Assembly: GCA_025362075.1 (NCBI GenBank)
Contig: JANYIL010000214.1
Location: forward strand, 1 to 40,964
Direction of reading: 5' to 3'
Length of the DNA: 40,964 nt
DNA from: Chloracidobacterium sp.
GTDB lineage: Bacteria; Acidobacteriota; Blastocatellia; Pyrinomonadales; Pyrinomonadaceae
Below, piece after piece: positions 7,372 through 36,926 of the stretch (position 1 is its first letter; each line of letters begins with the position of its first letter). Made by a program: the position numbers and the translations under genes. Below the pieces are notes generated by a model. That model saw only the letters and a list, made by a program, of their open reading frames with translations, was not told where the DNA came from and did no database searches.

Positions 7372-8958
7372 ATGTCTTTGGAAACAGACTTTATCGTCAT
7401 CGGCAGCGGCGTAGCGGGTTTGCGGGCGAGTATCGAGCTTGCAAAAGGCGGTGCGAGCGTTGCCGTTCTTACCAAGGATAAGGCCAGCGAATCGAACACG
7501 GAATATGCCCAGGGCGGCGTTGCGGTCGTTCTCTCAGAAGATGATAATGCCGAGCTGCACGAGGATGATACGCTCGTCGCAGGAGCCGGGCTTTGCGACC
7601 CGCTTGCTGTCGAAACGCTCGTCACCGAAGGCACAAAATACATCAAGGAACTGATCGATTGGGGCATCGAATTTGACCGCGAGGGCGGCAAGCTGCTGAT
7701 GGGGCAAGAGGCGGCCCATTCACGGCGGCGTATTTTGCACGCTCATGGCGATTCGACCGGAGCGGAATTTGTCCGCTCGCTGATCGCCCGGGCCGGAGCG
7801 GAAAAAACAATCAATCTCACTCCATTTGCGAACACCGAGAGCCTGATCATTAACAACGGCATATGCGTTGGCGTCCGTTTCCGCGATCCCGTCCTGCGTG
7901 CTCCGCGCGAACTCTACGCCAAAGCCGTGATCATGTGTACCGGCGGTGCCGGACAGCTTTATATGCATACGACCAATCCGCCGGTCGCGACAGGTGACGG
8001 GATGGCGATGGCGTATTTTGCGGGGGCCGAGATGGCGGATATGGAGTTTGTCCAGTTTCACCCGACGGCCCTCGATCTCGAAAAAGCCCCCAGATTTCTT
8101 CTGACCGAGGCGATGCGCGGCGAGGGCGGTATTCTCAAAAACAAATACGGCGAACGCTTTATGCCGCACTACGACGAACGGCTCGAGCTTGCACCCCGCG
8201 ACATCGTCTCACGCTCGATCGTCGCCGAAATGCGGCGAACCGGCACGCGAAACGTCTTTCTCGACATGACCGCACTCGACGAAGATTTCCTAAAACATCG
8301 GTTCCCCAAAATTTACGCAACCTGTGCTACCTTCGGCCTCAATATCGCAAAAGACCCTTTGCCTGTTTCGCCCGCGTCGCATTATTGCATGGGCGGCATC
8401 CGCACCGACCTTTGGGGCCGCAGTACGCTGCCGGGCCTTTATGCCGCCGGTGAGGTAACGTGTACAGGTGTTCATGGAGCCAATCGACTGGCGTCCAATT
8501 CCCTACTTGAGGGACTGGTGTTCGGTGCCCGTGCGGGTGAAGCCGCAGCAAAGGATAGTTCCGAGTTCCGAGTTCCGAGTTCCGGGTTGGGAACTCCAAA
8601 ACTTGGAACTTGGAACTCGGGACTCGGGACGGCGATGTCAACAGCGGTTAAGAAACGCGTCAAACGAATAATGTGGGAACGCGTCGGCATTATCCGCGAC
8701 CGCGACTCGCTGCGACGTGCCTTGAAAGAATTTGAGCAGATCGCGGCGGGTAATTTGAGCACTTCGTCGAGAAATTTCGTCACCCTTGCAAAACTTGTCG
8801 CTTCCGCCGCTCTCTGGCGAGAAGAGTCACGCGGCGGCCATTTTCGTTCCGATTTCCCTGAGCAGCATGAGGAATGGCGCGTTCATTCGATCCAGCGTCT
8901 TGACACCGGCATTTCTTCGGCGTCGCAAATGAATTTTGACACCGCCCGTGCGGAATAG
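7372..8958 (+). CDS. nadB: L-aspartate oxidase
   Basis: FAD motif DFIVIGSGVAGLRASIELA, EYAQGGVAVVLSEDDN, HSRRRILHAHGDSTGAEF, SHYCMGGIRTD, GEVTCTGVHGANRLASNSLLEGLVFG. Contains an in-frame repeat insertion (see repeat feature). Confidence 0.95.
   Translation: MSLETDFIVIGSGVAGLRASIELAKGGASVAVLTKDKASESNTEYAQGGVAVVLSEDDNAELHEDDTLVAGAGLCDPLAVETLVTEGTKYIKELIDWGIEFDREGGKLLMGQEAAHSRRRILHAHGDSTGAEFVRSLIARAGAEKTINLTPFANTESLIINNGICVGVRFRDPVLRAPRELYAKAVIMCTGGAGQLYMHTTNPPVATGDGMAMAYFAGAEMADMEFVQFHPTALDLEKAPRFLLTEAMRGEGGILKNKYGERFMPHYDERLELAPRDIVSRSIVAEMRRTGTRNVFLDMTALDEDFLKHRFPKIYATCATFGLNIAKDPLPVSPASHYCMGGIRTDLWGRSTLPGLYAAGEVTCTGVHGANRLASNSLLEGLVFGARAGEAAAKDSSEFRVPSSGLGTPKLGTWNSGLGTAMSTAVKKRVKRIMWERVGIIRDRDSLRRALKEFEQIAAGNLSTSSRNFVTLAKLVASAALWREESRGGHFRSDFPEQHEEWRVHSIQRLDTGISSASQMNFDTARAE
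8557..8630. repeat. Heptad-repeat palindrome inside nadB
   Basis: Four tandem AGTTCCG (8557-8584), a spacer, then inverted heptads AACTTGG, AACTTGG, AACTCGG, GACTCGG (8600-8627). Encodes approximately SSEFRVPSSGLGTPKLGTWNSGLGT. Confidence 0.9.
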
Positions 8959-12915: not shown

Positions 12916-14295
12916 TTAATATTTCAAATTCGTTATCTGTTCATGGACATTTTCAAGGTCGATCTCCATCACATTTTCAATCTCACCACAGATCGACATC
13001 AACAACCGATCCTGTGCGTTGCCTTTCTCTTTTGCCAAGGAATACGGCATGTCTTCGCGAAATGTAACCATTGAATATTTTGAAAAATAGTCAGGATAGG
13101 TCTGTTCGAGCTTAGTTTCGAGTTCTCGCTTACGTACGAAGACTGGATCGGCCACAGCATCGCGCATCTCGTAGAAATTTTCCTCGGCCATATCGGCGAT
13201 CGCATCGGCGTTTATCTTACGCAGCTCGCCGTATTCCTTGTAGACCGTTTTCCATTCGGTGTGGTGTTTTGCAATTAGCTGGCCCAACACGCGAACATCC
13301 TCAAACGCACAGTTCATCCCCTGTCCGTAAAATGGCACCACCGCGTGGGCCGCGTCGCCGAGTAGCAGCGCCCGGCCGCCGGCATTCCACGGCCAGCATT
13401 TGATAGTGCCAAGATTGCCGGTCGGATTTGTGAAGAAATCGTCCGTCAAGGTCGGCATCAGCGGCACCGCGTCAGGAAACTCCTTGTTGAAAAAATTGAG
13501 AAGTGATTCCTTGGTCGCTAGCGCCTCAAAGGAGGAACCACCTGCGTGAACGGGTGGGTTCTTATGCGCCAAAAAGAGCGTGCAGGTAAAGCTCCCATCA
13601 AAATTCGGCAATGCGATCATCATGAATTTATGACGCGGCCAAATGTGGAGCGCGTTCGGCTCAATAGCAAACAATTCCGAAGAACCCACCCGCTCATGCA
13701 GGTGGTGCAGCCTAGGGATATGCAGTTCCTTGTAGCCATGCTCAAGCCACGTTTGCGCAAAATTAAACCGCTCGACGCCGCCGTGCAGCATCGCGTTTCG
13801 AACGGACGATCCGGCGCCGTCGGTAGCGATGAGCGTATCACCCGTGACCTTTGTACCACTGGAAAACTTCGCTTCGCCCATTGCGCAATCAAAATAGATG
13901 CATCGCTGATCGAAATGAAACCGCACGCCCGGATATTTCTCGGCTTCGTTTATCAGAGCGACGTTTAGGCCCGCACGTGAAACGGAATTTATGTACTCCC
14001 CCTTGCGTCCGGAATAAGGCAGCAGCTTTGTCTCGCCGGCAACCGAGTGGATCATCCGCCCGTACATCGGCACGGCTTCGGCGAGTATGTATTCATCCAT
14101 GCCGACCTCGCGAAGCGCCGCGATACCCCGGTCGGACAATGCAAGATTGATCGAACGCCCAGCAGCGACCTCTTCAAGCCGCATATCGCCGCGAGCCTCA
14201 TAAACATCGACAGCGATGCCGCGTTTTGCGAGATATATCACAAGCAGCGAACCCGCCAAACCGGCACCGATAATTACAACTTTAGATTCGGACAT
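12916..14295 (-). CDS. kmo: Kynurenine 3-monooxygenase
   Basis: VVIIGAGLAGSLLVIYLAKRGIAVDVYEARGDMR, GRSINLALSDRGIAALREVG, NALHIWPRHKFMMIALPNFDGSFTCTLFL, ALLLGDAAHAVVPFYGQGMNCAFEDV. Confidence 0.95.
   Translation of the reverse strand: MSESKVVIIGAGLAGSLLVIYLAKRGIAVDVYEARGDMRLEEVAAGRSINLALSDRGIAALREVGMDEYILAEAVPMYGRMIHSVAGETKLLPYSGRKGEYINSVSRAGLNVALINEAEKYPGVRFHFDQRCIYFDCAMGEAKFSSGTKVTGDTLIATDGAGSSVRNAMLHGGVERFNFAQTWLEHGYKELHIPRLHHLHERVGSSELFAIEPNALHIWPRHKFMMIALPNFDGSFTCTLFLAHKNPPVHAGGSSFEALATKESLLNFFNKEFPDAVPLMPTLTDDFFTNPTGNLGTIKCWPWNAGGRALLLGDAAHAVVPFYGQGMNCAFEDVRVLGQLIAKHHTEWKTVYKEYGELRKINADAIADMAEENFYEMRDAVADPVFVRKRELETKLEQTYPDYFSKYSMVTFREDMPYSLAKEKGNAQDRLLMSICGEIENVMEIDLENVHEQITNLKY
13535..13561. 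repeat. REP-like element A inside kmo
   Basis: gaaccacctgcgtgaacgggtgggttc; encodes NPPVHAGGS on the minus strand. Confidence 0.78.
13682..13710. repeat. REP-like element B inside kmo, inverted relative to A
   Basis: gaacccacccgctcatgcaggtggtgcag; its reverse complement ACCACCTGCATGAGCGGGTGGGTTC matches element A at 23 of 25 positions by eye. Encodes LHHLHERVGS. Confidence 0.78.
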
Positions 14296-24333: not shown

Positions 24334-24486
24334 GTCAGAACCACCTGCGGTAGCGGGTGGTTTAGCTTAACGATTTTGGTACTTCGTCAAAATTTAGGAA
24401 GTCAGTCTTTAACCATGCTACCGCAGGTGGTTCAGGCTGATGGCGTGAGTTGTTAGAACCCAGTCGCTATCGCTCCCAGTTCTGAC
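24334..24486. repeat. Cluster of three REP-like palindromes (one inverted pair plus one degenerate copy)
   Basis: 24335-24363 tcagaaccacctgcggtagcgggtggttt; 24411-24434 aaccatgctaccgcaggtggttca (inverted); 24453-24486 reverse complement GTCAGAACTGGGAGCGATAGCGACTGGGTTCTAA. Confidence 0.85.
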
Positions 24487-24491
24487 AATGG

Positions 24492-36758: not shown

Positions 36759-36921
36759 GTCAGAACCGCCTGTGTAAGCGGGCGGCAAATACGTCGTAAA
36801 AGAATTGACCGCAGATAAACGCAGATGACGCAGATATAGAAATTGCTCTATCTGCGTCATCTGCATTTATCTGCGGCTAAATTCTGTCTAAGGTCCATTC
36901 CGCCCGCTTACGCAGGCGGTT
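36759..36921. repeat. Nested double inverted repeat between convergent msrA and the pepT-like gene
   Basis: Outer REP-like arms agaaccgcctgtgtaagcgggcggcaa / reverse complement GCAACCGCCTGCGTAAGCGGGCGGAAT. Inner arms ccgcagataaacgcagatgacgcagata / reverse complement CCGCAGATAAATGCAGATGACGCAGATA. Confidence 0.93.
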
Positions 36922-36926
36922 GCCGA

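Follow-up and report, generated by a model that had tools for sequence, protein, structure and literature searches.

Background

Palindromic repeats that lie in frame within genes have already been described in bacteria. Among the Rickettsia palindromic elements (RPE-1, RPE-4 and RPE-6; reviewed in PMC10969869), nearly half of the first reported copies were intragenic (PMC10969869; PMC3733652), and REPs within open reading frames (ORFs) are on record from Rickettsia conorii, Opitutus terrae, Thauera, Thioalkalivibrio and xanthomonads, as well as from other bacteria; they mostly encode 20-30 amino acids and sometimes occur twice in one gene (PMC3733652). In REPINs, two inverted REPs and a short spacer make up the unit (PMC3116915). 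The enterobacterial repeats RU-1, RU-2 and RU-3 are small mobile repeats with open frames that also lie within genes, in units of 103-168 bp (PMC2759123), and inverted repeats embedded in protein-coding genes are reported from nematomorph mitochondria (PMC6649704). Within a limited literature search, no paper on such elements in Blastocatellia was found.

The element described here, from uncultured Acidobacteriota (Pyrinomonadaceae), is a striking variant of this known phenomenon and adds a new lineage to it. As in Rickettsia, dispersed palindromes lie in frame in unrelated conserved genes and add peptides to their products, and homologues lacking the insert exist; unlike the Rickettsia elements, to which it is likened by description and not by sequence, the element occurs either singly, at about 32 nt, or as an inverted pair, ends in GTCAG, and shares its loops with several unrelated families. 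It also resembles the intragenic GTAG/CGTC REPs of O. terrae, Thauera, Thioalkalivibrio and xanthomonads, which are single or paired in ORFs, add 20-30 amino acids, sometimes twice per gene, and have tRNA synthetases and tRNA pseudouridine synthases among their hosts (PMC3733652), but differs from them in its GTCAG end, in a strong measured preference for a single peptide frame, and in the use of the same loops by several families. Its inverted pairs with spacers (45 in the genome studied) recall REPINs; unlike REPINs with RAYT transposases, it adjoined no RAYT gene at the loci read in that genome, and over a third of its copies in that genome are intragenic. It is shorter than the RU repeats (PMC2759123) and occurs in other bacteria; the nematomorph palindromes (PMC6649704) are mitochondrial, perfect and much longer.

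Protein-coding palindromes are widespread in an acidobacterial lineage; housekeeping enzymes are among their hosts, and in different species they are found again at the same loops. The added finding is that these shared loops are filled by unrelated palindromes. With dozens of related genomes at hand, additions of selfish repeats to proteins and the tolerance of loops become directly testable through presence/absence series, frame bias and structure. Annotators of these genomes should expect such inserts, which reappear from one independent assembly to another and probably do not stem from misassembly.

Methods

The window (the whole stretch of DNA analysed, 40,964 nt) is contig 254 of genome G000, which comprises 3.9 Mb in 299 contigs; nearly all of the genomes used are metagenome assemblies. 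The kmo gene was compared among species with its loops masked. Element copies were searched with a consensus allowing three or fewer mismatches and with a stricter pattern, using the reversed pattern as control.

Results and discussion

The kmo gene and its two arms

The host gene, kmo (positions 12916-14295, minus strand), encodes a kynurenine 3-monooxygenase of 459 amino acids, as judged from structural matches (P. fluorescens KMO is the top PDB match, E = 4e-90) and a fold model (mean pLDDT 84; TM 0.85 to KMO structures). The first-pass annotation had reported two inverted REP-like palindromes translated in frame within this gene, and both were found where it placed them. The arm at 13535-13561 (plus strand; GAACCACCTGCGTGAACGGGTGGGTTC) reads NPPVHAGGS in loop 2 of the protein and is degraded at its outer end, and the arm at about 13682-13710 (minus strand) reads LHHLHERVGS in loop 1 and has lost its terminal GTCAG. 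The arms, each of 34 nt, are 85% complementary, are separated by 116 nt, and belong to the CGTGA/CATGA subtype of the element rather than the GGTA subtype. Neither retains its GTCAG end, as is expected if the insertions are old. Because the sequence between them is conserved kmo sequence present in every homologue, we read the arms as two insertions and not as one unit.

Loop lengths bear on this reading unequally. Loop 1 has 14 residues in G000 and 6 in most congeners (8 longer), and it contains the sole part of the model with pLDDT below 50 (residues 200-208), in keeping with an insertion. Loop 2 is about 6 residues longer than in the KMOs of an outgroup family, in which, as in many congeners, both loops are short. 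The expectation that homologues would have shorter loops therefore held for loop 1 and, against the outgroup, for loop 2, but failed against P. fluorescens KMO, whose loop 2 is as long as that of G000; length is thus no proof at loop 2, where the argument depends on the palindrome and on comparison with congeners. That these loops vary in length anyway, P. fluorescens loop 2 included, speaks against an insertion reading, and the net gain (8 and about 6 amino acids) is smaller than the element unit, so that the insertion event is seen only coarsely in KMO.

The arrangement of arms is common to G000, G023 and G036; in G036 well-preserved arms fill both loops, whereas neither loop of its sister G030 is filled, and loop filling must consequently have occurred more than once or been lost. 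In G025, loop 2 is filled and loop 1 is not.

The element family

A search of G000 with the consensus returned 125 matches (three or fewer mismatches) compared with 8 for the reversed-pattern control, and the stricter pattern returned 115 compared with 0; within the window, 6 matches were found where shuffled sequence would give 0.60. The arm consensus is GTCAGAACCNCCTGCNNNAGCGGGNGG, with a sharp GTC end, and the element can be written GTCAG-AACCNCCTGC-NNNN-GCGGGNGG..., with two main subtypes, GGTA and CGTN. It occurs as a single arm (about 32 nt, in G031) or as two inverted, outward-facing arms separated by a spacer, with a total length mostly of 60-150 nt. There are 45 inverted pairs among 116 arms in G000, and many arms also stand singly. 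Two intergenic pairs on separate contigs (L003 and L004) have a nearly identical spacer and different flanks, which fits copying of the whole unit.

The GTCAG end is conserved across 286 arms from four genomes, and the element fits neither the GTAG tag nor the CGTC tag (the latter of the REP type that includes RPE-4/6), C preceding GTC in only 9 of the 286 arms. The near absence of C at this position is also a possible target preference. Within the genus, the element is present in 38 of 41 genomes; it extends to many genera of the family and, in a second family of the class, to three genomes, and other families sampled gave no matches or stray ones. The data thus show a dispersed repeat with a sharply defined GTC end, found both singly and in inverted pairs, and present or absent at the same loops of related species; its mobility is inferred from this distribution.

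Two further pairs of the family lie between genes of the window. The inverted pair at 24334-24437 (L020) is of the GGTA subtype, with one arm at 24338-24363 and a truncated right arm at 24417-24433; that at 36759-36922 has matches at 36763-36785 and 36900-36922. All four additional copies listed by the first-pass annotation (near 24335, 24411, 36760 and 36897) therefore exist, that near 24411 being the truncated one, but the kmo arms fall outside the GGTA subtype on which its consensus was based. The spacer of the pair at 36759-36922 holds another inverted repeat, of CGCAGATAAACGCAGATG type, apparently nested.

Copies inside genes

Intragenic arms number 44 of 116 in G000 (about 38%), 36 of 84 in G010 (43%) and 19 of 37 in G031 (51%), only 3 of 49 in G003, 6 of 19 in G106 (of another genus), 0 of 25 in G134 and 0 of 28 in G038, where an arm is scored as intragenic if an ORF of at least 150 amino acids with coding-like codon use spans the site, a rough test that 80% of random window positions pass and that was applied to stretches around the sites rather than to a gene catalogue. 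For one and the same element, the intragenic share thus ranges from 0 to about 50% among related genomes, and stop codons alone seem insufficient to explain this range.

Pfam assigned 19 of the 20 host ORFs submitted to it to families. Among the G000 hosts are chorismate synthase (aroC), leucyl-tRNA synthetase (leuS, twice), methionine synthase (metH), a lyase of aromatic amino acids that matches histidine ammonia-lyase (hutH), a CoaBC-like protein (coaBC), an RluD-like pseudouridine synthase (rluD) and a YceG/MltG protein (mltG), together with an EgtB-like protein (twice), two ABC transporters, a GH92 glycosidase and a penicillin amidase. The palindromes thus lie in dozens of ordinary enzyme genes as well as in intergenic DNA, and in the former they are apparently read through as extra protein loops.

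Comparison with solved structures and relatives locates the added residues at the arms. The alignment of AroC to 1q1l matches up to the arm and picks up again past it, HutH has 13 extra residues at its arm relative to a solved structure, and LeuS likewise has extra stretches at its elements. Across the genus, the AroC loop measures 6-10 residues in at least 10 species and 23-50 where palindromes are present. In MetH, a net insert of 30 nt is present in G031 and G009 and absent in G019 and G020, the protein remaining in register on both sides. Exact junctions were sought in the closest relatives, together with the target duplication that a MITE would have beside its terminal inverted repeats; the inserts are clear and inverted ends are present, but the flanking loops are too diverged to show a junction or duplication. 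Presence/absence among relatives, insertions relative to solved structures and dispersal in the genome together support the early suggestion of an ORF-invading mobile palindrome comparable to the Rickettsia elements. A loop of an M1 peptidase (L018, L331) and the interdomain linker of CoaBC (L025, L317) are each filled in both G000 and G031, by differing subtypes.

Reading frame

The PPAxAGG (P-P-A-x-A-G-G) frame is used by 89 of the 102 arms within genes, whichever strand they lie on. GGTA arms read forward have two stop-free frames, and 24 of 25 lie in the PPAxAGG frame (p = 8e-7). Since the alternative open frame of GGTA arms yields a peptide with Cys and Trp, selection at the peptide level would be the simplest reason for the bias. 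Two other apparent signals were discarded. An excess of C or T at the variable base of forward arms (22/22 as against 35/103) follows from the need for an open frame, in which A or G would make a stop, and the tendency of in-gene pairs to have lengths that are multiples of 3 (15/18, compared with 12/26 for intergenic pairs) is likewise partly built in.

Different palindromes in the same loops

The main element fills KMO loop 2 in G000, G025, G023, G036 (three copies), G031 and G007. In G020, G019, G034, G008, G015, G032 and others, this loop is occupied by a second family (GGCGGAAACCCGAGCGGTAGCGAGGG). A third, of CTCCCCTCC type, is found there in G012 and less clearly in G033, and in G009 it sits inside an apparent remnant of the first. 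At least three kinds of inverted repeat fill the AroC loop across species, and loops of CoaBC, PurL and asparaginase-like genes are likewise filled by differing inverted repeats, the CoaBC insert sitting between two Pfam domains. Given unrelated families in the same loops, the interdomain position in CoaBC and the low pLDDT of KMO loop 1, it seems that tolerance of the site, and not its sequence, decides where inserts persist.

Origin of the insertions and competing explanations

Very probably, the kmo palindromes arose when a mobile REP-like element, now spread through Pyrinomonadaceae genomes, inserted twice in frame long ago. Entry into genes would be roughly random, and selection would remove copies that cause a frameshift or a stop or strike a structured region, while those in surface loops or interdomain linkers could persist as short flexible peptides. 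In kmo, two copies would have settled in loops around one conserved segment and decayed since. The enzyme that moves the element probably acts in trans, and the effect on the host is likely near neutral. Intragenic palindromes are most likely functionless, selfish elements that loops and linkers tolerate, since the peptide given by their usual frame is small, flexible and stop-free. Counting against this account are the nearly all-intergenic copies of G003, G134 and G038 and the failure to tie any transposase to the element.

An ordinary REPIN, moved by an IS200-like RAYT and landing in genes by chance, would differ from this explanation only in the mover, and is a serious though less probable account. 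The 45 inverted pairs with spacers among 116 arms, the sharp element end and the 12 Y1_Tnp (IS200-like) genes of G000 would all suit it, but the end is GTCAG and not GTAG, and the Y1_Tnp genes read adjoin other hairpins or none. Of the 12 G000 loci, 10 were read and none had the element nearby; it lay within the stretch retrieved at only 2 of 40 Y1_Tnp loci of the genus (10 from G000 and 30 from relatives), and no RAYT partner consistently flanked by it was found in G000 and the six congeners; a RAYT acting on it in trans is possible but unsupported. It is improbable that the kmo pair is one captured unit with a kmo segment as spacer, moved or gene-converted as a block: its arms face outward as in paired elements and the arrangement recurs in three genomes, but the intervening segment is conserved KMO in all homologues, G025 is filled at loop 2 only, and G030, sister of G036, at neither.

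Repeated filling of the same loops across species might also point to a selected property, in kmo or elsewhere, for example a hairpin with a regulatory role or a linker of some use. We consider this very unlikely, as the loops are filled by unrelated sequences, relatives do without the inserts, host functions are unrelated, and tolerance accounts for the recurrence without function. PPAxAGG is a low-complexity peptide, and G+C-rich loop codons (Pro, Ala, Gly) might mimic a palindrome by chance; the excess over the reversed-pattern control, the nucleotide-level likeness to intergenic copies and the conserved GTCAG ends already refute this for the family, leaving it conceivable only for single degraded arms and hardly credible overall. 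Returning to insertion of a mobile element tolerated in loops, a bolder and rather doubtful extension is that the element evolved to be translatable, its one stop-free frame mapping onto itself in both orientations so that PPAxAGG is a mobile flexible peptide within genes, and that the recurring loops are a lineage-wide landing ground for many unrelated palindromic families.

Other hairpin families

Y1_Tnp genes at six G000 loci (L114, L115, L116, L119, L120 and L121) have hairpin families of their own, possibly true REP/RAYT pairs; the hairpins are CCGTGGACAAACGTCCACGG, CCACTAGCTAAAGCTAGTGG, CGTCGGG...CCCGACG and CCTGCGGCAACGCCGCAGG. In the window, a second REP-like family (GTCAGAACTGGGAGCGATAGCGACTGGGTTC) has an intergenic copy at 24454-24487 (minus strand). 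In proteins of congeners this family is translated as SEPGAIATG, a peptide present in KMO loop 3 of relatives and in the LeuS of G003; the LeuS of G017 has it as ASEPGAIATG. A further unrelated inverted repeat, of 23 nt and CCGAGTTCCGAGTTCC type, lies in frame at 8558-8630 (plus strand) in a variable stretch of a nadB-like gene (7372-8958, plus strand), and is a second coding inverted repeat of the window.
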